The notes under the pieces were generated by a model, which saw nothing but the letters and a program-made list of their open reading frames with translations, made no database searches and was not told the origin of the DNA. A DNA stretch of 13,412 nucleotides from a bacterium (GTDB taxonomy: Bacteria; T1Sed10-126), in assembly GCA_003554945.1 (NCBI GenBank), contig PWHN01000047.1:1-13412 (forward strand), in the 5' to 3' direction. Positions 148-13,412 of this stretch are shown piece after piece. Position numbers and translations under genes: made by a program. Numbering within the stretch: the first letter of the stretch is position 1; each line of letters starts with the position of its first letter.

Positions 148-900
148 ATGGTCGATGAAAAAACAGCGAGAGATTTTTTCGATTCAGGTGACGGGTCTGA
201 ATGGAGCACCCCGGCTTATGAACCATTAAGCGCAGAAGAAAAGAAGAAAAAAGCAGAAACCTTCAGAGATATCTTCAAAAAGCCGCAGATGCAGGAGTTA
301 GACCGTCAGCTTGATACCGCCAAAACAGACTACAAAAGTCAATTAGGCAGAACCCAGGCTAATTACCAAAGACAATACGATATGCTTGCCGACCAGGAAG
401 CAAGACAGCGCAGGCAGGATTTAGAAAGCTCTATTGCCAGGGGTACCGGGCGTTCAGGTGTAGTTGACTATATGGACAGGGAAAGAGGTAGAGAATATTC
501 ACAGAGGTTTGCTGAATTAGGGCACCGGGAAGCAGCAGAAGCAGATGCTTTAGCTGCGGAATTAAACAGGATTAAACGCCAGGTGCCTGAGCAAAGACAG
601 CAGTTAGCAGGGCAGGCAGCAAGGATTCAGGCCCAGGAACTGCAGAGGCTGAGAGATTTAGATTACCAGCGCAGGATGGAAGGCAGTCGTGATCAATTTG
701 ATCGCATGTTAGGTATCTTTGACAGGACACAGTTAACTCCAGTAGAACAACTGCAGCTATATACTCAGCTTGCCCTTGCCAAGGGTCAATTCCCCGGTGA
801 TGTGCCTGATATATTCGGCAGGTTTGGGGTGGGAACAGAGACAGCATCCACAGAAGAAGCAGCATCTGATCCTGCGACATTTGGTAGGGGGTTATATTAA
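148..900 (+). CDS. Gln/Arg/Glu-rich helical phage protein, probable minor virion protein
   Basis: This is a 250-residue protein of unrecognised family. After a short acidic N-terminus (MVDEKTARDFFDSGDG), residues from about 35 to 190 are almost entirely predicted helix, with many Gln, Arg, Glu and Ala and coiled-coil-like spacing. A Gly/Arg break (RGTGRSGVVDYMDRERGREY) sits near residue 100. The tail is less helical and Gly-rich, ending ATFGRGLY. It has no cysteine, signal peptide or membrane segment. The stop overlaps the next ATG by one base (TAATG), so the two genes are translationally coupled. It lies two genes upstream of the giant protein in an otherwise structural operon. I infer a small internal virion (ejection-type) or connector-associated protein. 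A tail-assembly or scaffolding protein is an alternative. Confidence 0.6.
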   Translation: MVDEKTARDFFDSGDGSEWSTPAYEPLSAEEKKKKAETFRDIFKKPQMQELDRQLDTAKTDYKSQLGRTQANYQRQYDMLADQEARQRRQDLESSIARGTGRSGVVDYMDRERGREYSQRFAELGHREAAEADALAAELNRIKRQVPEQRQQLAGQAARIQAQELQRLRDLDYQRRMEGSRDQFDRMLGIFDRTQLTPVEQLQLYTQLALAKGQFPGDVPDIFGRFGVGTETASTEEAASDPATFGRGLY

Positions 901-1478
901 TGCCTAAAGCAGAAGAAGAACGTACCGCAAAAAGATCCCCTGCATGGCAGGATAAGCTAAATGCTTTAACCAGGCAAAGGCAAAAGATTCAAAGCGAGGG
1001 CAGCCCCCCGTTTGAGCCTGGTGCAAAGACCATGGATCATCAGCGAATGCAATCGCAAGAGCGTATGCATGCTGAAGATTTAGTTTTCAGGCGAGAGCAG
1101 TTAGCTTCACAGGAAAGACAGCACCAGGAGCAGCTAACCACGCAACAAAGAATGCAATCAGAACGGCTTGCATTTGATAGGGCAATTCAAGAGAGGCAAT
1201 ATGAATTGGCCTGGATGGAGTTTCAGGCAGCAGCAGCAGCTCAAGAAGAAACAACTGCGCTTGATTGGGCAAAACACGATCTTAATGTAAGGGCATTTGA
1301 GCACGAAAAACAAGCACAAGAAGATTTATATGGTGGCTTGTTCGATGGTTTTGATGAAGCTTTATATGGTGGCACCAGTGAAACACAGCCAACAACTGCA
1401 GAAGGTAGAGCAACGGCAATAGATCCTGGGTGGGGCAGACAACCGGGGCAAAGAGACGAAAGAAGCTTGTTAAGATAA
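900..1478 (+). CDS. Gln-rich coiled-coil phage protein, translationally coupled to the upstream gene
   Basis: This 192-residue protein starts at the ATG sharing one base with the upstream TAA. A G-rich ribosome binding site (AGGGGG, 886-891) inside the upstream gene sits 8 bases away. Residues about 45-125 form a long Gln/Glu/Arg-rich helix with an imperfect internal repeat (RMQSQERMHAEDLVF and RMQSERLAFDRAI, about 105 bases apart), then an alanine run (FQAAAAAQEE). The C-terminal third is acidic and Gly/Tyr-rich (DLYGGLFDGFDEALYGG) and ends basic (QRDERSLLR). There is no cysteine. I do not recognise the family. Its similarity in style to the preceding protein, and its place just before the giant gene, suggest that both are small partners of the giant protein in the virion. 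That role is inferred. Confidence 0.6.
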   Translation: MPKAEEERTAKRSPAWQDKLNALTRQRQKIQSEGSPPFEPGAKTMDHQRMQSQERMHAEDLVFRREQLASQERQHQEQLTTQQRMQSERLAFDRAIQERQYELAWMEFQAAAAAQEETTALDWAKHDLNVRAFEHEKQAQEDLYGGLFDGFDEALYGGTSETQPTTAEGRATAIDPGWGRQPGQRDERSLLR

Positions 1479-1490
1479 ATATGTTTATAT

Positions 1491-1495
1491 AGGAG
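1491..1495 (+). promoter_or_regulatory. Ribosome binding site deciding the start of the giant gene
   Basis: AGGAG is 1 base from the ATG at 1497 and 7 bases from the in-frame ATG at 1503. Normal spacing favours 1503, removing two residues (Met-Ile) from the longest possible protein. The 24-base gap upstream is AT-rich, but I see no convincing -35/-10 pair. Confidence 0.7.
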
Positions 1496-1502
1496 CATGA
1501 TA

Positions 1503-4500
1503 ATGGCCCTTAACACTAATTTTGCAAGCAGGTTGTTAAATAGAACCAGAGAACCTGAGCAGCAAACGACAACACAGTATGATGACTTTATGCATAAAGA
1601 CCGGACTGTAGAGCAAAAACAGCCTACCAACCGGTGGCAAATGTACCGGGACTCTTTGAAACAAACCGCAGCCAGGAAAGCTGTAGATCACATGAAAAGA
1701 ACCGGTATTCAGTATGACCCTGAAGAAATTGTCATTAATTCTATGCTATATACCAGGGACAGGCTGATGGAGAACCCGGAACGTGCGCAACTCGTGTTTG
1801 GTGTTGGCACAATAGACCACGAAAAAGAAAAAGAGCGCATCATTGATGATGTTTTGGAGTACGGCCAACTGCAACCAAGGGCAAAATATCAAACAGAACC
1901 AGAAGATGTTGACATACATGATTTTGATGACCATACCGAATACGAGAAGTATAAAGAGTCGATGCCGGGAATGGGCTATCTTGTTGCCGGCGAGGGCCAT
2001 GAAACCTTAGAGCAGGCTATAGCTGCAGAAGAACAAAGATACGGACTTGATCCCTTCCAGGGTGATGTAAGTCAACTGGAAATGCAAGAGGCCGTGCAAA
2101 ACCTTGATTCCCAGGCAAAGCAAATACTGGAGAAAGAAGATCCGTCTGAAGAAGAATATAAATACCTGATGGATTCTTTTGCAGAACAGGGAATTGATTT
2201 AGCAGCAACTACTCCTGCTCACGGTATCGGGGTTGACCCTTATGCTGAAGGGGTAGAGCCTGCTGAAGATGTATCTTTATGGGAGCAAATTGCTTATCCA
2301 GTTACATCAGCTCTTGGTGGCATACAGCAATCAATATATTCAATTATCGAGTACGGCATGGATGAAAACTCGCTTGTCAGACGTTTTACAGATAATATTA
2401 TAGAGCCGGTAAAAGGGATTGTTGATACTACAGTAGATTTTCTTACTGCAGATGAATTCTCAATAGACGAAACATCCTGGGGCCAAAGAGCAGAAAAGAA
2501 TTGGGATAGAATGGAAGAGATAGCGCAAAATCCACAAATGTGGCAGTATGCAGAATCTATCAGAATGCACAACCGGGAGAAGGTATTTGAAAACTACGGG
2601 CCGGTTGCCGGGATTGCCTTAGATACTGTATACATGGCTGAGGGTCTTGGGCACTTAATGGCTGAGATGGCTCTTATAACAAAATTAACTAAAGGCACAG
2701 GAACAAAAGCATCTGCAGTTAGAGGAGCAGGACAGCTTGCGCAGTATGGCAATAGAATGATGCAGGCATTGAATAGGGTTAATCAGAGTCAAAGAATACC
2801 GCAGTTTGCTAAAACCATGCTTAATGCTGCAGCCAGAAGTGGTGAGCAAGCAGTAGTAAATCCGCAGGTGCAGGCAAAGCTTGGAAGAACCCTTGCTCAT
2901 CGTTATTTAACTACTCCCGGTGAGCTGGAAGATCGGGCGGAAGCTGCAGCTTATGGTATGCTTTACAACTTTACCCCGGTCATGGCAAGGAGTTTTGGTA
3001 AGTCTAATATACTGACAAAGCTAATTGATACAGGTTTAAACTTAATTATTTCAACGCAAAACGAATATTATGAGGCAATCCAAAAGCATGGTTGGACAGT
3101 AGAATCAGCAATGCAAATAATACCAGCTCTTGCTATGGATATTGGTATGTCTCTTAGCACAAAATCCGACAGGGATATAAGAAATTACCGACAGCAGTTA
3201 ATCAATGATGGTGTGCCTGAAAAAGCAGCACAGGCAAGAGCACAGAATGTTGCTGAGCTAAGAGAAGAATTTGCGAAGCAAGGCATTCTTGATGAACAAG
3301 GAAGGCCGGCCAGTCCACAAGAAATTAAAGATTTATCGAATGAAGCAACAGCAGATGCCCGCAGGGTGGGCATGGAAATATTTGAACCGGGGACACGAGA
3401 AGGTGATCGTGTTGAGCCTAGTAGAGAACAAGAAGTTACAGCAGCAAGAACAGGGGAAGAACCTAGAGTTCAAAGAACTGAAGATATTCAGATTAACAGA
3501 AGGGATAAAGATTACCAGAGAATTAAGAAAGAAGTAAGGAATACCTTGAATAGAGATGATTATGAGTCTCAGGCTGCTTATGAGCGAGATGTAAAAGCTC
3601 AAGCAGATGAAAGATATAAGGCAGAAAAAGCAGGCCAAGAGCCTGTAGGAACGGAAGGAATCCCCGAAGCTGAAAGAACTCCTACTGCTGAAGCACAAAG
3701 AACGGGTGAACGTCCTGCTGCTGAAGATAAGCCTGCAGAAAGATTAGACAACAAAACATTACTTGAAATTGGAGATAACTTTAGGGATGTAGGTATCTTC
3801 GATAATGCAGAAAGGCACCTAAATAAACAAGCAATAGAACAAAATAGGCCGGATGAAGCCGTTCAAAGAATTAACGACTTCTTACATTCAGAAGCAAGAA
3901 AGTTTAGGGAGACAGCCTCTACATATGGAATAAGCAAAGAAGAAGGAAAGCGAATTGAAGCGCACGTTAAAAATATAGCAAAAACTTGGGATGGTAGGAG
4001 CGTAGAGCCAATAAATGATGCATTAAGAACAATGGGGCAATATCGTGATAAGTACAATAACATTATCATTCAAGCTCCTGATAGGGCAGAACTTGGTGAA
4101 CGGACAGACACAACACGTGTTGAATTAGATAAACATGAAAATACTCAAATAGACAGCTTTACTGACCGTGCCGTCAAGGATCTTGAAAGGATCGGGGAAA
4201 AAGCAGACAGAGACAGCATCAGAAATGTTATAGAAGAAACTTACCGGGATATTAAAGAAGCCGAGGGTGGCAATAAGACCGAAGCTTTAAAGCGTATAAA
4301 TGAAGTATTAACTGCACAAAAGAAAAAGCATGATGGCGAAGAGTTTAGTTTCACCAAAAGAGACCATACTGCAGAAGAAGCTTTACTTAATAAATTGACC
4401 GGTAAGACAGCTAAGCCTGAAGCTACTGAGGTAAAAGAGGCTGCCCCTAAAGATGATGTAAAGCCTAAAACTGATGACAAGAAACCGGCAAAAGATGTAA

Positions 4501-7500
4501 AAGAAGCTGGCAAGCCAGAAGCAACTGCCCCCAAAGCTGATACCAGGACACCCGGTAAGATGAATGAAGGCTTAAAAACTGAGGGCGATAACAAAGAAAT
4601 ACAAACAGATGATGGTAATACTATAGCCACAGGGTATAATCGTATTGTGCATGGCGACAGGGGGTCGTATATTGAATTTGAACGTAAGCATTTAAATACA
4701 GATGCTTTCGGCCCTATGGTCGATAGGAAGAAAAAAGTAGGTAAAGGTGCTTATTACGATGAAGCTAATTTAAAGGATAAACCACAAACAGATCAAACAA
4801 GATTGTATAAACAACATAGACCGGTTAATTATGCGGATTATCAGGTAGGTAAATATTATATTGCTGCAGATAATCCCTATATTAAGGTTAAAGGTTTTAA
4901 ACCTGCAGCAGCCCCCAAGAAGCCTGCAGCTAAAAAAGAAGCTGATAAAAAAGAGCCTGAAGGTAAACAACAATTAGGTGAAGTTAGATATTCAGAAGAT
5001 GGTAAGTCTGCAGAACTGTTAACCAAGGGCAAAGACTTAAGGGGTGTTCGTGGAGATCATAAAGCACAAAGAGGCAAACATCATGATGGCACTCATGCTC
5101 TAATATTACCTGGTGATAAAACACCGGTTGAAGCAGGTACTGCTTTAAGAATAACCCTTGATGAAGGCAGAGATCAGCTTAACACTAAGGTAACTAAGGT
5201 TGAGACTGTTAAAGGCAAAGATCTTCAGAAGCCTTACCATATACCCGGCCAGTATAAAGACATGAACAAGAAAAAGTTTAACGAGCAAACCTGGCAGAAA
5301 ATTACTTATGACTTAATCGATGTTACTACCGGCGAGAAAACATCACAGTATATGGATGCAACTATCAGAGATACTGGTGCTGCAAGGAAGCAGACTCAAC
5401 AGGAAACCAATAAATATCTTAATCCTTACCGTAAAAATATTAAGGGCGAATCAAAAGAACATAGTACTTATAAACAAATTCCAAAACGTGAATATAAAGA
5501 AGAAATAAATGAGCTGCCTGCTGATAAGCCGTGGATGAGCAGGGATGATGAAAGTGGCACAATAACCTTACGTTCAAGTGCAGGAACAAGAATAGAAGGC
5601 GAAAAAGAAGAGGCAAAACGTTTAGAGCTTGGGCAAAGACAAATATCAATAACAAAGTATAGCAAGAAAAAGACACCTGATCGTTACCCGCAACAGGAGC
5701 ATACATTTAAAAACCTTGAAGCAGCAGCTCAGGCATCACGAATATTAGGATTTGGCAGAAGAATAGGTAAGGAAAAACAGAAAGAGTTTCTTGATAAATT
5801 ACAGAAAGCATCTGGAGATGAAGCAAGAGTTATATCGAGAGAAATTGATGCTATTGCAAATAAATTAATAGATGATTTAAAAACACGCTTTCCAAAAGAT
5901 GAAACATATCGCGATAGAGTAGAAAAAGCAATACACGAGATGACTCAACACTTCTTTAACGAGTTTTTCCACCTGGAACGTGCTGCATTAGCCAAGTTTA
6001 ACAAAGAAAGAAACCCTGAACTAGCTAATAAGTTAATGGCAGAAACAAACAAACTATTTGATTTTGATGGTGCATTGGGCATAGTCTTAACAGATGTAAG
6101 GGAAAGGCTATATGGAATACAAAACTATCAAACCAGGCCGGAATTATATGACGGTAAAGTTGAAATACTTGTGCCCGGTGAAATAAAGCGTGATGGAATG
6201 CAGTATGTGTATGATTCACCAATAACAGATCGTTCTGATTTAATGCGTAAAGACTTAAATGTTGCTGTTGAAAAGCGTAAAGATAAGGGTAAGGTTGAAT
6301 GGGATAGACGAAAAGCAAAGTGGTATATTGATGAAAAGATGGACTATGAAGATTACCAGCAATTAAAGAGTGCAGGCTTTACCGATACAGCTATTGAAAA
6401 TTTACATAAAAGTAATAGAGTTAATGAAGCTTATGAACAAATAAAAGAATCAGCAAAAAGAACAATAGAAAATCCAAAAACAATAAAAAGAGAGTCGGAC
6501 ATATTACAAAAAGAATGGGATAAGTTAAATGTAGATGAACGTAAAGACTTATTAACTAAAATGATATATGCAAATAGAGAGGTAATGCCCAAGAAATTAT
6601 CGGGCAACATCAAATCTTTTATTGATATGTGGGCAAGCTACAAAAACATAAAAGATATGCCTCCGGTAATATTTCGTTCTTTTTTAGACAATATGGGGCG
6701 CAAGGGAGTATTAACCGAAAGGGAAATTAAAGCAATTGAATCTAGACAACAACCGTCTGATATATTGTTTACCACCAGTGGCAGGTATGTCGGTGAAGAT
6801 GGTGTTAGATATCATGATATTGGTATTGGTGGTAGAATTGATGAACAGGGTCGGCCGATAATTAATCCAGAATATAATGTAAAGCCTATCAGTGCTGACT
6901 TAGAAAGAATATCACAGCACACCAGAGGCTTAATTAAACCTGGTGACGTTGATAAAAAAGGCGATCCGGTACCTGTATACTTCCAAGAATATGATACTAG
7001 GACAGGTTTAACTCCCAAAAAATATTATGTCCAAGAAGTGGGTATAGGTGCTGAAAAACCATATCAAAGATTTAATAAGAGCTGGGAAGAGCTAAATGAA
7101 TTAGAACGAACACTGTTATTAACCGAAGGCACATACAAAGTTTGGTTGAAAGATGAAGATGGCAATATATTAGATCATCCTGTAAGTGCGCGTGATCTAC
7201 ATTATGGCCGAGGGGTTGGCCGAAGCTTTCAGCCTTTAATTAGTAGAGAAGCCTTAGATGAGTTTGTTCAAAAAAGTCATGCTGATATAAGAGCAAAAAA
7301 AATAACAGATCCTAAAGAAATAGAATCTATACATGAAATAACCAGGGCATTACATAATTGGGAGAATGCTGTCCATGAACGGATGGATTATACCGGGCAA
7401 AGCAGGGATGATCTTAATAATATAATGGCATTAAATCTTTCTCGTGACCCGGCAACACATTCTTTTTATGCTACAAGCAGATATCCTCGCAAGCCTTTTG

Positions 7501-10500
7501 CGGAAAATATAGAAGAAACGGTTGGGCGATTTAGGCAAAATACTGAAAGCTACATTAAAGATTATGAAACAGCAAAGCAGGAAGTTAATTTTGAAAGAAG
7601 GATGAAAGGCGAAGAACCTTTAGAGGGCGATGCATTACACAGGGCTGCATTAAAATATAACCACGACAAAGCGCAATATCCATTTGAAGTGGTAAGGATG
7701 GGCGAAGAAGTAAAAGAACCATCTATGCGTGAAATCGTTATGGCCCGACAACAAATGGGCATGGATCGTGATGATGATACATCTGAAAAACCAGCGTTTC
7801 TTGATATTCACAGCTTTGATCGACCAGGCATATATCTTGCACGAACAGAAGCTGACGGATTAAAGTTCATAGAAGATAATGTACCTGAGGGCGAAAGGCA
7901 TTTATATGAAGTGCAACCTCGTGAGGTTGACCATGTATTAAGATACGGGAGGGATAGTGATGGCAATAGAGCTGAAGAATGGGTTAAGACTACACTGCAA
8001 CCCTATCTCGAAGCAATCTACGGAGGCACAGTCCCTGGAGTTCGTGGCCAAGAAGGCAAGGCTGTGGAGGGACATGAAGTTCGAGGGGACAGACGAGGAG
8101 AAACTCGCACACCTCGAAAGGAACCTGCACGGGATGACAGAGGATTAACTCCAGAACAGAGAAAAAATGAAAGTGCTGCTATGAGAATAGCGGAAGCTTT
8201 AGGGATGAGAATGGATCCCGAAGGCAAAGACAGCACGTTGCAGTTTACCTTGACCGGCAATCCTGAGTTTGCTGGTGCGGTGTTAGGTAGGCATATTCAC
8301 TTAAATCTTGATACGCCTAGACCGCAGCATACTATTATTCACGAAGTAACTCACCGTTTAATGGAGCTTGATCCAGGGGAAAAAGGTGAAAAGAGACCTT
8401 ATACCTTGATGAAAGAAAAGCTCTTGTCGGGTTGGAACGAAAAGAAAAGAGCTAAACCAAAGACTGATGCAGAGATTAAAGAATGGCTTGCTGACTATAT
8501 GGCCGAGTTATCTTACACTAAAGGTTTTTGGCAGGCACCTGGAATCGGCGGTAAAACACATGGCATTATGCCAACAAAGTTCAGATCAACTCAATTTGAA
8601 ACAGACCCTGATAAGCTACCTGATTCTTTAAAAGTAAGGCACCTGCTTTACGGTAAAGAACAGGCTGAGATGGACAAATTAATGTATCGCCTGATGAGGA
8701 AGCACTTGCAGGGGGACAAGGTATTTGATGACAGCCTTCCTTTCCCCGATAATAGGTTGCTTTACCAGACCGATGGCGGGGCACTGCTTAGCCATCTATC
8801 GCAAGGCCAGAGAGACACTATTAAGCGTGGTGTTGATAAGGTTCTTAGAAATATCAACAGTAACTTAGAGAGTCCTCATTTGCAAGCTTTTATTAATGCT
8901 AAAGATAAGCGTGGTTTTGTTAAGGGTTATCTTAACAACCCGGAATTTAAAGCGGAGCTGCCCTCTAATCTGCTTAAAGCATACCAGAATCTTGGCAACA
9001 AGAAAGTGCAGGAGATGACTTTCAGTGAAGCCAAGACCATGGTTGCGGTATATGATTGGGCCGTTAAGCATATGCTTTACCGCAACACCCCGAAGAAAGA
9101 AGAGATCAGCAAGAACATTAAGCTTGGCGAATACATATGGGGCGAAGAGGGCAACAGCAACCGGCTGACAATAGCAAGAGAGTTTTTGGACAAAAAAGAC
9201 TTAAAAGATGTAAGAGGGTTATCTTATGAAGAGCTAAGAAAGCTCAATGAAAAATTAGTCAATGAATATGTCAGGGCTAGTAATGCAGGTTTCCAAAACA
9301 TATTTGGCACTTCCCGCAGGGATGTTGTCACCAGTATTGTTGAAAAGAAACTGCTTAAACCCGGCAATATAAAGATGTTAAACAACTTGAATATTGTAGA
9401 TTATTCTGAGCGATATGATCTTAATTATGATCTCTTAAGAAAATCTACAGAGCATATTACTGCCAGGGCAATGCATGAAATGATTCGTGGTGAAAAGGTA
9501 GACGATGAGCTGCTCAGGCAGTTAGAGAAGAATCCCGATGAAGTAATTGGAGTAATGATCGAAAATACTTTCCATCGTCTCCCCGGCAAGGGATATAACT
9601 TAAAAGCAGTAGATGATCATATTAACAAACATGGCGATATCGGGGCTGTCCGCACATCGTTGGATGTATTAATTTCCTTAATCCCCCACGGCCAGAAGAT
9701 TAGAAGTAACCTGCAGATGGCAAAGAAGCGTGGGGAAGATTGGGCAAAACCTTTCTATCAAAGAACCAATGATGCCCTTAAGGGCTTAAAAGAAGAAAGC
9801 TTAATTAAAGTAGGTAAAATTGTCGATGGTAAGCGTGATGAAATTGAAGGCAAGATTACTAAAAGAGAAGAAAATGCAGCACAAGAAGTAAGGAAGATAT
9901 TTGCTGACTTATTCGATCAAGGCGTTCAGTTTGGCCTGTTAAAGAAAGGCCAAAAGATAGATGATTACTTACCGCATTTATCTGTATTAGACAAAAGCAA
10001 CAGGGAAATGGGCGAGCATGCCGATAAAATCCCGCATGAGTTTTTCTCTAAAGACAGGCACCGGGTCAGCAAGGGAAATATCAACTACAATGCTAAAGAA
10101 GCACTGCAGATATACATTAATGCTATGCAGAAAAATGCTTTTGTTAAACCTCACATCAAGAGCTTAATGCCTCAATACAGGAAAATGAAACAGCGAACAC
10201 CGAATAAGGCAAAGTTCCTGGGAACGATGATGGATGTTGCTATGGGCAAAATGCCTGAAGCTGGCCTCAAAGAAGGCAGGCTAATGAAAGACACTATCAA
10301 CCGGCTGAGGACAATGGTCGGCAAAGAGGAAATATCTGAAGAAGATGCAGCCAAGGCCCTGCAGCACTATTCCAGGCTGTATGTAATGGCTGAGGTAGGC
10401 AAGGCAATGGGCTTTTCTCCCTCAACCATGTTAAGGAACTTCACCCAGCAGGTGGGAATGATCTGGGATGTATCTACCAAAGAAGATCCTTTAAGAGGCT

Positions 10501-11924
10501 TCAGGTTAAAAGGCCAGCACCTTAAGATGATGATGTCTCCTGAAGGCAGGGACAGGTTAAATAAGATAGCGCAGTTTAATGAAGTCTTGGTGGACAGGCG
10601 ACCGACAGAAGCTTTAAGGCAGGTTGAAGGTGCTCACAAGCACATGGAAGATAAATTCGATGATACCCCCAAGGGGCCGGTGGATAAATTCCAAGGCCTG
10701 GTAGATAAATCGATGTTTCTGTTCAGGCATGCTGACGTTTCTAACGTTAAAGCTTCTCACTTTATCAAGTTAATGGCATCTTTAGAGGATGGTATGCCAA
10801 TGAGAGATGCTATCAGGGAAGCTAACGAAGGAACTTTCCGCACGCAGTTTGACTATGGTGCCGGCAGGCCGATGATATATCACAGTGCCCCCGGCAGGAT
10901 GGCAGCCTTGTTTCATTCCTGGCCGACAAACTACTTTAATATGCTAAGGGACTGGTCTAATCAAGCAGGAGGTGTTGCTACTGAAGAGTTTGCCCGTAAG
11001 TTTGCCGGGCAGATGGCTACCTATTTAATTATAGCTGGCCTTTTAAGGCAGGTAGGCTTAAAGATGAACATAGGGCCGTTTTCTACCGGCGAAGGGCATA
11101 TGGTCACTAAAGGTGCAAGGGCAATACAAAGCTGGATAGCCGGTGAAGATGCAACCAGGGAGCTGCCGGTCTTTTTCTCTACTTTAGATGATGCTACTGA
11201 TACTATCGGCAATGTAATGCGGGGAGACGTTAATACTTTAGGAAAAATAGCGTATGAAGTTGGCTCGTTCACCCCCTTTAGAAATCCAATCAAAAGGTTA
11301 GTCCCGGCAACACAGGCAGTATTAAACGAAGGCCGGACATACGATCCAATTACCGGTGAGGAAAAGCACAAGATAGACGATCCCATGCATTACTTTGCCA
11401 CCATAATGGGGATGAGCAAGTTTGCCGATGATCGCTATCATTTAGCACAACGGTACAGTTTTAGTCCTCGAATGACAGAAACGCACAACATGTTAGAGAT
11501 TGCCATACACCAGCAGATAGATTCTGATTATCAGCCGTCCATCCAACTTAACCGTGACTTACTGTGGAAAATAGCCAGGGGGCAGGGAGCTGAGGTAACA
11601 GATTTATTGAGGAATCCTGCTGAATTAGAGCAAGCGGTAATGAAAAGAATCAAAAGGGCCGGCCTTGATGCTGATGAATTAAGGGATAATGCTTATGCAA
11701 ACATCAGGCGGTACCATTCTAACTTAGCACGGCAACACGTGTTGTCCGGCGGGGGCAACTGGAAAAAAGACGTTAAGGGCAGGCTTAACATGATTCAACG
11801 CTCGCAGGGTAACTTGAATTACTACAAAAGAACCTATGAAGAAATCCTGGAAAACAACCAGTCTAAAGCGGTCAGGCAGCGGGCATTTGAAACGCTGCAG
11901 TTGATAGATAAAATGCAAAACTAA
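1503..11924 (+). CDS. Giant phage polyvalent-type virion protein with embedded zinc metallopeptidase-like domain
   Basis: This is a single uninterrupted frame of 3473 codons. Approximate layout: 1-360 helical and acidic; 365-395 and 480-555 hydrophobic helices (TPVMARSF, LNLIISTQNEYYEAI, IIPALAMDIGMSL); 630-720 charged linker; 730-960 helical; 969-1019 and 1133-1156 Lys/Pro/Ala linkers; 1036-1132 small module with GYNRIVHGDRGSYIEF; about 1160-1580 mixed; 1584-1619 DUF5710-like; about 1720-2172 alpha/beta-rich, unassigned; 2222-2344 metallopeptidase-like with HEVTH at 2280-2284; 2360-3473 long helical C-terminal region with DYLPHL (2821-2826) and an LPD38-like stretch (about 2972-3287). The protein has no cysteine. 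Giant proteins combining structural and effector domains are established as 'polyvalent proteins' of phages and conjugative elements. I infer that this one is packaged and delivered with the DNA. It matches the size of N4 virion RNA polymerase, but no polymerase or lysozyme motif is seen. It is the third of three consecutive cysteine-free proteins. Confidence 0.8.
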   Translation: MALNTNFASRLLNRTREPEQQTTTQYDDFMHKDRTVEQKQPTNRWQMYRDSLKQTAARKAVDHMKRTGIQYDPEEIVINSMLYTRDRLMENPERAQLVFGVGTIDHEKEKERIIDDVLEYGQLQPRAKYQTEPEDVDIHDFDDHTEYEKYKESMPGMGYLVAGEGHETLEQAIAAEEQRYGLDPFQGDVSQLEMQEAVQNLDSQAKQILEKEDPSEEEYKYLMDSFAEQGIDLAATTPAHGIGVDPYAEGVEPAEDVSLWEQIAYPVTSALGGIQQSIYSIIEYGMDENSLVRRFTDNIIEPVKGIVDTTVDFLTADEFSIDETSWGQRAEKNWDRMEEIAQNPQMWQYAESIRMHNREKVFENYGPVAGIALDTVYMAEGLGHLMAEMALITKLTKGTGTKASAVRGAGQLAQYGNRMMQALNRVNQSQRIPQFAKTMLNAAARSGEQAVVNPQVQAKLGRTLAHRYLTTPGELEDRAEAAAYGMLYNFTPVMARSFGKSNILTKLIDTGLNLIISTQNEYYEAIQKHGWTVESAMQIIPALAMDIGMSLSTKSDRDIRNYRQQLINDGVPEKAAQARAQNVAELREEFAKQGILDEQGRPASPQEIKDLSNEATADARRVGMEIFEPGTREGDRVEPSREQEVTAARTGEEPRVQRTEDIQINRRDKDYQRIKKEVRNTLNRDDYESQAAYERDVKAQADERYKAEKAGQEPVGTEGIPEAERTPTAEAQRTGERPAAEDKPAERLDNKTLLEIGDNFRDVGIFDNAERHLNKQAIEQNRPDEAVQRINDFLHSEARKFRETASTYGISKEEGKRIEAHVKNIAKTWDGRSVEPINDALRTMGQYRDKYNNIIIQAPDRAELGERTDTTRVELDKHENTQIDSFTDRAVKDLERIGEKADRDSIRNVIEETYRDIKEAEGGNKTEALKRINEVLTAQKKKHDGEEFSFTKRDHTAEEALLNKLTGKTAKPEATEVKEAAPKDDVKPKTDDKKPAKDVKEAGKPEATAPKADTRTPGKMNEGLKTEGDNKEIQTDDGNTIATGYNRIVHGDRGSYIEFERKHLNTDAFGPMVDRKKKVGKGAYYDEANLKDKPQTDQTRLYKQHRPVNYADYQVGKYYIAADNPYIKVKGFKPAAAPKKPAAKKEADKKEPEGKQQLGEVRYSEDGKSAELLTKGKDLRGVRGDHKAQRGKHHDGTHALILPGDKTPVEAGTALRITLDEGRDQLNTKVTKVETVKGKDLQKPYHIPGQYKDMNKKKFNEQTWQKITYDLIDVTTGEKTSQYMDATIRDTGAARKQTQQETNKYLNPYRKNIKGESKEHSTYKQIPKREYKEEINELPADKPWMSRDDESGTITLRSSAGTRIEGEKEEAKRLELGQRQISITKYSKKKTPDRYPQQEHTFKNLEAAAQASRILGFGRRIGKEKQKEFLDKLQKASGDEARVISREIDAIANKLIDDLKTRFPKDETYRDRVEKAIHEMTQHFFNEFFHLERAALAKFNKERNPELANKLMAETNKLFDFDGALGIVLTDVRERLYGIQNYQTRPELYDGKVEILVPGEIKRDGMQYVYDSPITDRSDLMRKDLNVAVEKRKDKGKVEWDRRKAKWYIDEKMDYEDYQQLKSAGFTDTAIENLHKSNRVNEAYEQIKESAKRTIENPKTIKRESDILQKEWDKLNVDERKDLLTKMIYANREVMPKKLSGNIKSFIDMWASYKNIKDMPPVIFRSFLDNMGRKGVLTEREIKAIESRQQPSDILFTTSGRYVGEDGVRYHDIGIGGRIDEQGRPIINPEYNVKPISADLERISQHTRGLIKPGDVDKKGDPVPVYFQEYDTRTGLTPKKYYVQEVGIGAEKPYQRFNKSWEELNELERTLLLTEGTYKVWLKDEDGNILDHPVSARDLHYGRGVGRSFQPLISREALDEFVQKSHADIRAKKITDPKEIESIHEITRALHNWENAVHERMDYTGQSRDDLNNIMALNLSRDPATHSFYATSRYPRKPFAENIEETVGRFRQNTESYIKDYETAKQEVNFERRMKGEEPLEGDALHRAALKYNHDKAQYPFEVVRMGEEVKEPSMREIVMARQQMGMDRDDDTSEKPAFLDIHSFDRPGIYLARTEADGLKFIEDNVPEGERHLYEVQPREVDHVLRYGRDSDGNRAEEWVKTTLQPYLEAIYGGTVPGVRGQEGKAVEGHEVRGDRRGETRTPRKEPARDDRGLTPEQRKNESAAMRIAEALGMRMDPEGKDSTLQFTLTGNPEFAGAVLGRHIHLNLDTPRPQHTIIHEVTHRLMELDPGEKGEKRPYTLMKEKLLSGWNEKKRAKPKTDAEIKEWLADYMAELSYTKGFWQAPGIGGKTHGIMPTKFRSTQFETDPDKLPDSLKVRHLLYGKEQAEMDKLMYRLMRKHLQGDKVFDDSLPFPDNRLLYQTDGGALLSHLSQGQRDTIKRGVDKVLRNINSNLESPHLQAFINAKDKRGFVKGYLNNPEFKAELPSNLLKAYQNLGNKKVQEMTFSEAKTMVAVYDWAVKHMLYRNTPKKEEISKNIKLGEYIWGEEGNSNRLTIAREFLDKKDLKDVRGLSYEELRKLNEKLVNEYVRASNAGFQNIFGTSRRDVVTSIVEKKLLKPGNIKMLNNLNIVDYSERYDLNYDLLRKSTEHITARAMHEMIRGEKVDDELLRQLEKNPDEVIGVMIENTFHRLPGKGYNLKAVDDHINKHGDIGAVRTSLDVLISLIPHGQKIRSNLQMAKKRGEDWAKPFYQRTNDALKGLKEESLIKVGKIVDGKRDEIEGKITKREENAAQEVRKIFADLFDQGVQFGLLKKGQKIDDYLPHLSVLDKSNREMGEHADKIPHEFFSKDRHRVSKGNINYNAKEALQIYINAMQKNAFVKPHIKSLMPQYRKMKQRTPNKAKFLGTMMDVAMGKMPEAGLKEGRLMKDTINRLRTMVGKEEISEEDAAKALQHYSRLYVMAEVGKAMGFSPSTMLRNFTQQVGMIWDVSTKEDPLRGFRLKGQHLKMMMSPEGRDRLNKIAQFNEVLVDRRPTEALRQVEGAHKHMEDKFDDTPKGPVDKFQGLVDKSMFLFRHADVSNVKASHFIKLMASLEDGMPMRDAIREANEGTFRTQFDYGAGRPMIYHSAPGRMAALFHSWPTNYFNMLRDWSNQAGGVATEEFARKFAGQMATYLIIAGLLRQVGLKMNIGPFSTGEGHMVTKGARAIQSWIAGEDATRELPVFFSTLDDATDTIGNVMRGDVNTLGKIAYEVGSFTPFRNPIKRLVPATQAVLNEGRTYDPITGEEKHKIDDPMHYFATIMGMSKFADDRYHLAQRYSFSPRMTETHNMLEIAIHQQIDSDYQPSIQLNRDLLWKIARGQGAEVTDLLRNPAELEQAVMKRIKRAGLDADELRDNAYANIRRYHSNLARQHVLSGGGNWKKDVKGRLNMIQRSQGNLNYYKRTYEEILENNQSKAVRQRAFETLQLIDKMQN
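2595..3167 (+). other. Hydrophobic-helix region in the N-terminal part of the giant protein
   Basis: Residues 365-555 of the giant protein carry its most hydrophobic N-terminal stretches. One runs from GPVAGIALDTVYMAEGLGHL to about residue 395. A second cluster at 480-555 contains AAYGMLYNFTPVMARSF, TGLNLIISTQNEYYEAI and MQIIPALAMDIGMSL. They are interrupted by charged residues and are not classical transmembrane helices, so amphipathic, membrane-associating or tightly packed helices are equally possible. A protein that crosses or lines the host envelope during DNA delivery would be expected to have such segments, but this is inference. Confidence 0.4.
4407..4559 (+). repeat. Low-complexity Lys/Pro/Ala/Glu linker in the giant gene
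   Basis: Residues 969-1019 consist almost only of Lys, Pro, Ala, Glu, Asp, Thr and Val. KPEAT occurs twice (AKPEATEV and GKPEATAP), and KP/KPK-type motifs recur (VKPKTDDKKPAKD). It is typical of a flexible, disordered tether and marks a domain boundary before the module at 4608-4898. Confidence 0.75.
4608..4898 (+). other. Embedded small module with GYNRIVHGDRGSYIEF signature
   Basis: Residues 1036-1132 lie between two Lys/Pro/Ala linkers and look like one compact domain. The module begins with NTIATGYNRIVHGDRGSYIEF and ends with YADYQVGKYYIAADNPYIKV. From memory, this pattern resembles small uncharacterised phage and plasmid proteins with a 'GYTRVVxGDRGPYxEF'-like signature. I cannot name a family or function. 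Clear linkers on both sides support an acquired, independently folding unit. Confidence 0.45.
4899..4970 (+). repeat. Second Lys/Pro/Ala-rich linker in the giant gene
   Basis: Residues 1133-1156 read KPAAAPKKPAAKKEADKKEP and on, a short, strongly basic, proline/alanine-rich tether. Together with the linker at 4407-4559 it brackets the GDRGSYIEF module. Codons are mixed rather than exact DNA repeats, so it is maintained as protein composition, not as a recent DNA tandem repeat. Confidence 0.7.
6252..6359 (+). other. DUF5710-like motif inside the giant protein
   Basis: Residues 1584-1619 read DLNVAVEKRKDKGKVEWD followed by RRKAKWYIDE. This fits the general pattern of DUF5710, a short module with an 'LNVPY...AK..GA.WD...K.WYVP' layout found in DNA-processing and mobile-element proteins. 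Here Trp1600, Trp1607 and Tyr1608 occupy the conserved positions. The match is by eye and short. The function of the family is unclear, though association with primases and polyvalent proteins is known. Confidence 0.4.
8020..8148 (+). other. Protein-like stretch in the +1 frame inside the giant gene
   Basis: In the +1 frame, 8020-8145 gives 42 codons ending at a TAA (8146-8148). The peptide looks like a normal amphipathic helical protein (EFVAKKARLWRDMKFEG, then EEKLAHLERNLHGM). Thirty-four of 42 third positions are G or C, and the segment is about 58% GC. The giant frame reads it as an Arg/Gly/Glu-rich linker (residues 2173-2215, for example EVRGDRRGETRTP) between an unassigned module and the metallopeptidase-like domain. 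It may be a captured fragment or an old pair of compensating indels. Against this, the main frame's third positions are about 32% GC, like the rest of the gene, so an ordinary Arg/Gly linker could produce the pattern by chance. Confidence 0.4.
8166..8534 (+). other. Zinc metallopeptidase-like (HEVTH) domain in the giant protein
   Basis: Residues 2222-2344 contain HTIIHEVTHRL, in which HEVTH (2280-2284) fits the HExxH zinc-binding and catalytic motif of zincin peptidases. Downstream, EWLADYMAEL (2327-2336) supplies acidic candidates for the third zinc ligand (D2331 or E2335, 51 or 55 residues after the first His), a gluzincin-like arrangement. The preceding FAGAVLGRHIHLNL would be the usual beta strand. 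Metallopeptidase domains are known parts of phage polyvalent proteins. Possible roles are self-processing of the giant protein or cleavage of a host target after delivery; neither can be chosen from sequence. Confidence 0.6.
10416..11363 (+). other. C-terminal LPD38-like helical module of the giant protein
   Basis: Residues about 2972-3287 contain SPSTMLRNFTQQVG, then TQFDYGAGRPMIYHSAPGR and FHSWPTNYFNMLRDW, followed by a hydrophobic helix (MATYLIIAGLLRQVGL, from 3171) and GSFTPFRNPIKRLVPA. The sequence 'F.YG...P.....PGR...LF.SWP.NY' is, from memory, typical of the C-terminal region of giant phage and polyvalent proteins, annotated as a large polyvalent protein-associated domain of the LPD38 type. 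Its biochemical role is not established. GC content is clearly higher than in the middle of the gene. Confidence 0.45.
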
Positions 11925-11925
11925 A

Positions 11926-11933
11926 AGAGGTGA
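11926..11933 (+). promoter_or_regulatory. Ribosome binding site deciding the start of the 11939-12340 gene
   Basis: AGAGGTGA follows the giant gene's stop. The longest frame would start at a GTG (11930) inside this site. The GTG at 11939 lies 8 bases after AGAGG, which is normal spacing, so 11939 is preferred. Confidence 0.65.
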
Positions 11934-11938
11934 AGAAA

Positions 11939-12340
11939 GTGGATTACGTAAAGCTTTATGATGCTGAAACTGAAGAAGAAATGTCACAGGCAGGTGAGTT
12001 TGAGAATACAGTTTCTTTGATTCTTAGGGCAGATCTTTATCCCGATCAGGGTAGTTATGATTCCAGGCGGTTATACTTGGAAGCTGAAGAAGATTACTAC
12101 GTTGATGAGGTTAAGGTAAAGCCGGTTGGCGAACACAGTGAAAGATGGCAGCTAGCTCCCGATGTAAGCAACAACGAAGGTGCTTATGAAGCAGGTGGCG
12201 AAGAGTTGGAGCTTGGCATGGTCGGCCATGGCTCGAACAGGGTATATTTTTGGGCTAAAGCGCAAGCTTTGGATTCAGAACTACCTGAAAATGATGTAAC
12301 AGTAACCTTAAAAGTCTCCGGCATTGCCGGAGTAGTATAG
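11939..12340 (+). CDS. Small beta-rich phage accessory (tail or decoration) protein, first of a related pair
   Basis: This 133-residue protein probably starts at a GTG. It opens MDYVKLYDAETEEEM, continues with alternating hydrophobic residues typical of beta strands (NTVSLILRADLY, RRLYLEAEEDYYVDEVKVK), carries WQLAPDV near the middle, and ends in TVTLKVSGIAGVV. It is acidic and has no cysteine, signal peptide or membrane segment. It resembles the next gene's product in layout: an N-terminal KLY strand, an (I/L)YL strand, APDV then a Gly-rich turn and Tyr, and a later strand with Trp. The pair probably arose by duplication. Similar short 'KLYxD' proteins occur among tail-region genes of Firmicutes phages (recalled, not searched). 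A beta-sandwich decorating or linking fibre components is my inference. Confidence 0.6.
   Translation: MDYVKLYDAETEEEMSQAGEFENTVSLILRADLYPDQGSYDSRRLYLEAEEDYYVDEVKVKPVGEHSERWQLAPDVSNNEGAYEAGGEELELGMVGHGSNRVYFWAKAQALDSELPENDVTVTLKVSGIAGVV
12316..12332 (+). repeat. Inverted repeat (7-bp stem, 3-base loop) at the end of the first accessory gene
   Basis: CTCCGGC (12316-12322) and GCCGGAG (12326-12332) form a perfect GC-rich stem around ATT, 5 bases before the stop codon and just upstream of the next gene's ribosome binding site. No T-tract follows, so it is not a standard terminator. It could tune translation or mRNA processing between the two genes, or be accidental in Gly/Ala-type codons. Confidence 0.35.
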
Positions 12341-12747: not shown

Positions 12748-13412
12748 ATGAGTGTAATCCCGAAGGGTAAAGAATTTAGCCCCCATACTACATTAAGCGA
12801 AGCATGCGATACCACAACAGCCGAGAGCTGTAAAGTAACAGATATTAATGCTTTTGCTGATTTAGAACCGGGGGAAGAAGGAATCATTGTTTTTTGTGTC
12901 AATGAATTTCACAGCAAAAACCCGGATGATTTTGAGATAATGACTTATTCAGGATATGATGCAGGGAACAATCAGCTTACAGGCTTAGTGCATCGTGACG
13001 GTGTGGCGAGAAACTGGCCTGAAGGCACATATGTTGCCAGCTATGGAACCTGGTACAGTTTTGAACAAATGAAACAGGCATTGTTTAATCACGAAAATCA
13101 ACAGATAGAACAAGATGAAGTGCATGGTTTAAGGGTTGTTGAGGGATCATTAGATTATTATGATGGTGAAAACTGGGTAACAGTAGAAACTGACCTAAGT
13201 AGTGTTGCAATACCTGTGCATCCTGTGAGCGATTTTAGTGCTGACCCTGACGACGAGCAGGCAATTTTAACATGGCATAACCCTGACAACAGGGTGGTTG
13301 GCACGATGACTTCAAACAGCCACAAACGATTACAGAGGCGGGACTGTTTAACTCGGCAGATGACATGTTCATCAGAGGAACATTCGACGGCATACCGCTG
13401 GAAAATGGCGAC
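12748..13412 (+). CDS. Phage tail-fibre or adhesin-like protein, incomplete at the window end, apparent frame break
   Basis: It starts at ATG 12748, 7 bases after GGGAGG (12735-12740); the nearby ATG at 12743 meets a stop after two codons. Translated here, about 221 codons are open to the window edge. Residues about 45-115 contain EIMTYSGYDAGNNQLTGLVH, then WPEGTYVASYGTWYSFEQM. This resembles a phage tail domain with an 'E.i.YtG..gn.LTGv.Rg....WpaGT.Va' pattern (recalled). HGLRVVEGSLDYYDGENWV follows. VSDFSADPDDEQAILTWHNP, near residues 161-180, looks like the first strands of a fibronectin type III-like domain, which is then cut short. After about 13287 this frame becomes Cys/Arg-rich and unconvincing, while the -1 frame shows a known phage motif. 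The true protein therefore probably changes frame here, or the gene is damaged or misassembled. Confidence 0.65.
   Translation, partial: MSVIPKGKEFSPHTTLSEACDTTTAESCKVTDINAFADLEPGEEGIIVFCVNEFHSKNPDDFEIMTYSGYDAGNNQLTGLVHRDGVARNWPEGTYVASYGTWYSFEQMKQALFNHENQQIEQDEVHGLRVVEGSLDYYDGENWVTVETDLSSVAIPVHPVSDFSADPDDEQAILTWHNPDNRVVGTMTSNSHKRLQRRDCLTRQMTCSSEEHSTAYRWKMA
13287..13412 (+). other. Out-of-frame continuation of the fibre gene carrying ITEAGLFN
   Basis: The -1 frame is open from 13287 (just after a TGA at 13284-13286) to the window end. It reads QQGGWHDDFKQPQTITEAGL, then FNSADDMFIRGTFDGIP. 'ITEAGLFN' followed by an 'F.R..F....l..gD' strand pair is a recurrent pattern in phage tail-fibre proteins. 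No start codon precedes the motif in this frame, so it can be expressed only through a frame change from the upstream gene. I see no classical slippery heptamer at the junction, which favours an indel, a deletion joint or a sequence error over programmed frameshifting. Confidence 0.6.

Follow-up and report, generated by a model that had tools for sequence, protein, structure and literature searches.

Few phage proteins are harder to recognise than ejection proteins, which diverge past sequence similarity and in short-tailed phages are encoded after the nozzle gene. It has been reported that N4-type virion RNA polymerases lack cysteine, which was explained as easing passage through the tail or periplasm (PMC2784036, PMC3715699, PMC3915230, PMC5795418); the lack has also been noted in PMC4837373, and has been extended to the giant proteins of StenR_269 and the Zobellviridae, where it was taken as a sign of a polymerase (PMC10747016). 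In N4, gp51 and gp52 have been described as channel-forming (PMC12633501). Cysteine goes unmentioned in that preprint on the structure of N4 ejection, in a review of ejection proteins (PMC8954989) and in a description of polyvalent proteins (PMC5512222), and no statement of a general cysteine rule was found in the literature searched, outside which most subscription journals lie.

The window analysed here is a stretch of 13,412 nucleotides and makes up an entire contig (C71) of a 2.2-Mb assembly in 121 contigs. It carries a run of three genes whose products contain no cysteine by direct count (0 in the proteins of 250, 192 and 3475/3473 residues), as the preliminary description had claimed, with the following features.

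148 to 900, forward strand: P0001 (g26), 250 residues, cysteine-free, rich in Q, R and E; putative small ejection protein 1
900 to 1478, forward strand: P0002 (g27), 192 residues, cysteine-free, rich in Q, E and A; putative small ejection protein 2
1503 to 11924, forward strand: giant (g28), 3473 residues, cysteine-free; putative ejected polyvalent protein
4620 to 4868, forward strand: giant residues ~1042-1124, resembling a stretch of LR756500 (tblastn E=6e-4, 37% over 82 aa)
8340 to 8354, forward strand: HEVTH (HExxH), giant residues 2282-2286 counted from the ATG at 1497; motif only
10407 to 11126, forward strand: giant residues ~2971-3210, C-terminal region common to DarB-like/PLxRFG giants

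The gene for the 250-residue protein starts with ATG at 148 and has AGGAGG upstream, and its stop is overlapped by the start codon of the 192-residue gene. For the giant, an alternative ATG at 1497 would give 3475 residues, and the start at 1503 has a better spaced Shine-Dalgarno AGGAG. Family searches returned only weak coiled-coil-like matches for the 250-residue protein and no match for the 192-residue protein. LR756500 is an uncultured 462-kb jumbo phage, in which the stretch resembling the giant lies in a small open frame.

The same phage is represented by the IMG/VR record IMGVR_UViG_3300027784_000013, of 33,231 bp, with 99.93% identity across the full window; no other close relative was found in IMG/VR and 84,980 genomes. 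Upstream of the window this record encodes TerS, TerL, a CHAP-domain protein, a P22-like portal and a scaffold-like acidic protein, and further a Mu-gpT-like capsid protein, an SU10-type adaptor, two fibre-like proteins and a nozzle/stabilisation-like protein, the portal and adaptor calls resting on matches to P22_portal and SU10_adaptor and the nozzle-like call on matches to phrog_3287 and others. Among the scanned proteins of the 33-kb record none was recognised as a tape measure or tail tube, which points to the layout of a short-tailed phage. The three cysteine-free genes come right after a small coiled-coil ORF downstream of the nozzle-like gene, and thus in the position of an ejection set, directly 3' of the portal, capsid, adaptor and nozzle genes. 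The host is presumed solely from the binning of phage and host together; it encodes an Omp85 protein and so probably has an outer membrane, and DsbB was not detected in it.

This locus resembles the described ejection systems in several respects. Its three-gene order parallels N4 gp52-gp51-gp50 and T7 gp14-15-16. The N4 (Schitoviridae) set is also similar in the size of the giant (3500 versus 3473 residues) and in having no cysteine in any of the three proteins, whereas the present phage has a P22-like portal and an SU10-type adaptor context. The T7 set and the ejection proteins of P22 and Sf6 share the post-nozzle position, the pattern of two smaller proteins and one large one, and the (near) absence of cysteine; in contrast to them, the set has no sequence similarity to theirs, and the giant is 2.6 times the size of T7 gp16 and has no lysozyme domain that we could see. 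Position and comparison together give good support to the reading of the three genes as an ejection set, from which we infer ejection itself.

Composition alone predicts about 36 cysteines for the three proteins together, in keeping with the dozens that the preliminary description had expected, and 32.7 for the giant, where none is found. Each of the five remaining frames of the giant's DNA contains 76-185 TGT/TGC codons, which places the absence at the level of the protein and not of base composition. Cysteine makes up 1.04% of the residues of the presumed host (158 ORFs from 20 contig stretches) and 0.85% (57/6717) of those of the same phage's other proteins, so that capsid, tail and packaging proteins do not share the absence, and at 0.85% the probability of no cysteine in 3473 residues is about 1e-13. 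The absence in the giant is therefore real and not due to chance. The two small proteins, for which 2.1 and 1.6 cysteines would be expected (joint probability about 0.02), are unremarkable alone, and the signal is that of the giant. The earlier suggestion that the lack of cysteine marks the three genes as one ejection set thus holds as regards their position, which is what defines the set, but cysteine is weak evidence for the small proteins.

Ejected proteins of other phages, to which the preliminary description had pointed as a check, proved to be likewise free or nearly free of cysteine. Proteins were labelled as ejected by annotation or gene position (by position in SV21, MW202803 and the neighbours of the LASTA and Mwe-JY07 giants) before their cysteines were counted. 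T7 gp14/15/16 contain 1 cysteine in 2261 residues (gp15/16 0/2065), N4 gp50/51/52 0/4294 and Sf6 gp11/12/13 1/1326, with the other proteins of these phages at 1.23%, 0.73% and 1.08%, respectively. Ten further phages (phiKMV, SP6, P-SSP7, epsilon15, phiEco32, crAss001, LUZ7, DSS3phi2, SV21 and MW202803), a set that includes a cyanophage and a Paenibacillus phage as well as crAss001, gave 9/28,684 in ejected proteins versus 583/63,159 in others. A Poisson model with the frequencies of the other 19 amino acids as predictors, trained on the non-ejected proteins of the other phages (leave-one-phage-out), was applied to 16 phages, among them this phage, LASTA and Mwe-JY07, all three brought in through the finding itself and the latter two with cysteine counted before they entered the model: 11 cysteines were observed versus 422 expected in ejected or position-inferred ejected proteins, and 937 versus 940 in non-ejected proteins. 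Cysteine is the sole residue depleted 50-fold in ejected proteins (0.02% versus 0.91%), all others lying within 0.56-1.36 of their usual frequency, and among proteins of at least 500 residues in the 16 phages 22/27 ejected versus 2/69 non-ejected ones have no cysteine. The rule is not absolute, as P1 DarB (9), epsilon15 (4) and crAss001 (4) have cysteines. Ejected proteins of short-tailed phages thus almost never contain cysteine, a near absence that the three genes share, and the rule appears to extend far beyond the published group.

The closest relatives of the giant are found through its C-terminal region, which matches the PHROG profile phrog_10089 (E=2.1e-4) and, by tblastn over all phages, proteins of Lastavirus, Parlo and Mwe-JY07, every match with E<1 lying within a protein annotated as PLxRFG, DarB-like or DNA methylase. 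Pairwise BLASTP of the region gave E=2e-6 and 2e-5 and an alignment was also built, with identity of 22-30% and E from 2e-6 to 8e-3 by search. The DarB-like/PLxRFG giants (Lastavirus LASTA, Parlo, Pavtok, PEp14 and Microcystis phage Mwe-JY07) are like the present giant in this region, in having no cysteine, in their size of three to five thousand residues and in being the final gene of a cysteine-free run; the LASTA (0/4433) and Mwe-JY07 (0/4985) giants and the proteins directly upstream of each lack cysteine. In contrast, the PLxRFG motif, which in those giants lies about 300 residues before the shared domain, is absent here, and neither a DNA methylase nor an SNF2 helicase domain was matched in Pfam, PHROG or NCBIfam. 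Alignment of the C-terminal domain thus relates the giant to PLxRFG proteins without placing it among them. We counted 4 cysteines in 103,763 residues of 31 giants sharing the domain (from an IMG/VR scan with the domain alignment and four phage records), many of them open reading frames clipped by locus ends and several mutually related, so that effective independence is less than 31; single linkage, which lumps mosaic giants, gives 7 clusters. These relatives did not show the frequent cysteines that would have told against the preliminary description, and in most of the loci the genes around them are at about 1-2% cysteine. One segment of the L108 giant, evidently out of frame (7 cysteines in about 335 residues), was excluded from the count. 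The cluster falls in residues 561-867, a stretch that does not align with close relatives, and is most likely a frame error; cysteine counts could flag such errors in cysteine-free giants.

Could the giant be a virion RNA polymerase of the N4 type? It has the length of about 3,500 residues, the lack of cysteine and the HExxH in its C-terminal part that characterise that protein, with HELVH at 2228 of the N4 polymerase and HEVTH at 2282 of the giant similarly placed, and it ends the same three-gene order. However, a pattern search for the T7-like polymerase motifs T/DxxGR, A, B and C in order did not find them, and thus no motif B/C arrangement; BLASTP showed no similarity to the N4 polymerase, and the giant's sole C-terminal similarity is to DarB-like giants. 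We consider a polymerase of this type very unlikely. The giant proteins of StenR_269 and the Zobellviridae (PMC10747016) share with it size, absence of cysteine and an internal-virion-protein position, and as the absence does not indicate a polymerase, the identification of polymerases from giant cysteine-free virion proteins needs correcting. Polyvalent proteins (PMC5512222) are like the giant in size, HExxH zincin motif and virion-gene context, but in the giant only the motif and one C-terminal region were recognised, and no further effector domain. The HEVTH motif, which has no Pfam match, is a possible zincin metallopeptidase site. Family libraries, run against the full-length giant as well as ten overlapping pieces of it, assigned no domain other than the C-terminal DarB-like match, and PDB sequence searches found nothing. 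Weak sub-cut-off Pfam matches (alpha-2-macroglobulin MG2, DUF7553, Sec10 and human cytomegalovirus UL40) were ignored, and we rejected BLASTP matches to P1 DarB (E 0.009) and T7 gp15 (E 0.47), which came from runs with neither low-complexity nor composition correction. AlphaFold single-sequence models had pLDDT of 38-40 and were not taken into a fold search.

It is likely that a short-tailed phage uses the three genes to encode its ejection (internal virion) proteins and that their products lack cysteine through selection on envelope crossing. The giant would be packed in the head, would leave it at infection by way of the portal and nozzle in an at least partly unfolded state, and would cross the envelope together with the two smaller proteins, to refold as a multidomain protein of early infection, possibly a metallopeptidase with a DarB-like C-terminal domain. 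Oxidation of a thiol, or a wrong disulfide made by it, could block passage or refolding, and long-term purifying selection would then disfavour thiols wherever a protein has to pass the cell envelope in an unfolded state. We infer the packaging, ejection and unfolding of these three proteins, and the chemical reason, from sequence comparison. In contrast to the channel-forming gp51 and gp52 of N4 (PMC12633501), neither small protein has a strongly hydrophobic segment, which counts against this explanation.

The narrow portal or tail channel proposed as the cause in the preliminary description is one possibility, by which cysteine would be excluded merely because disulfides or thiols obstruct unfolding through the tube, and the tape measures that lie inside tubes are indeed free of it (lambda H 0/853, HK97 0/1089, T4 gp29 0/590, P1 Sit 0/1140). 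However, T4 Alt (3/682), the phiKZ virion polymerase subunits gp178/gp180 (7/1941) and P1 DarB (9/2255), which are delivered from the head, keep their cysteines. Although these are a handful of proteins, their passage through the tail argues that the tube is not a sufficient cause, and we regard this explanation as rather doubtful. (A domain-level contrast between P1 DarB and podovirus giants, with 3 cysteines, was too small for use.) The same head-packed proteins, together with the portal and capsid proteins, which carry some cysteine, also make it improbable that cysteine is avoided during a long stay in an oxidising virion interior beside dense DNA, whether or not the protein is ejected. 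Scaffold proteins, which leave the procapsid and are not ejected, do favour such an effect, with 4 cysteines found against 22 expected from composition, about a 5-fold depletion, and suggest that further causes act on head-interior proteins. Scaffolds would also suit a by-product of fold or composition, in which long, helical, charged and coiled-coil-rich proteins are naturally poor in cysteine with no selection for ejection, and ejected proteins do contain more A, Q and R and less W, H and Y. Yet the leave-one-phage-out expectation far above the observed count already takes composition into account, and catalytic polymerase domains are likewise depleted (0/1106 in the N4 polymerase core; 12 cysteines in each of the cytoplasmic T7 and phiKMV polymerases, which have the same fold), and we hold a by-product to be highly improbable.

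Tape measures also reach the envelope. The simplest reading may then be that the constraint acts on proteins lying unfolded or rebuilding in the envelope, which a few contractile-phage proteins suggest. Selection on envelope crossing could accordingly be one case of a general, family-independent exclusion of cysteine from phage proteins that span or cross the envelope, set by envelope exposure and not by the tail tube, which would cover short-tailed ejection sets, DarB-like giants and tape measures and would exempt the head cargo of contractile phages; we see the chances for and against such a rule as evenly balanced. A phage of Paenibacillus, which is Gram-positive, also has a cysteine-free set, assigned by position, and this speaks against the Dsb system acting alone. 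If the rule is true, unknown ejected proteins could be found from sequence alone, and the depletion seen in the survey would allow ejection proteins to be picked in uncultured phages. For the N4-type virion RNA polymerase, the idea of the preliminary description is in the literature, which covers N4-like phages and some of their relatives; what seems to be new is how broad the depletion is and that it reaches DarB-like giants. The depletion also turns a physical question into a testable one, namely which features a protein has to do without if it is to unfold, pass an envelope and fold again.

The genes flanking the cysteine-free run gave several further observations. The window begins (1-56) within a near-exact tandem duplication of 54-56 bases coding a repeated coiled-coil unit, DQLEKDLKEFKKDTEE, which in the IMG/VR record (G001, reverse complement) lies at 19259-19314 in ORF g25. 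Downstream of the giant, the first accessory ORF (11930-12340, 136 aa) is free of cysteine, with a chance expectation of 31%, and the second contains 1. The fibre ORF (12748 onward) has 5, of which 2 fall in a tail that is probably out of frame; the cysteines noted earlier in the second accessory protein and the fibre were thus found again. By eye, the fibre-like proteins g22, g23, g31 and g32 of the IMG/VR record seem to have an N-terminal module common to all four, which suggests duplicated fibre adaptors. The fibre ORF of the window seems to leave frame near 13300 (within 13200-13412), with a fibre-like C-terminus continuing in another frame, and this apparent break is present in both assemblies.
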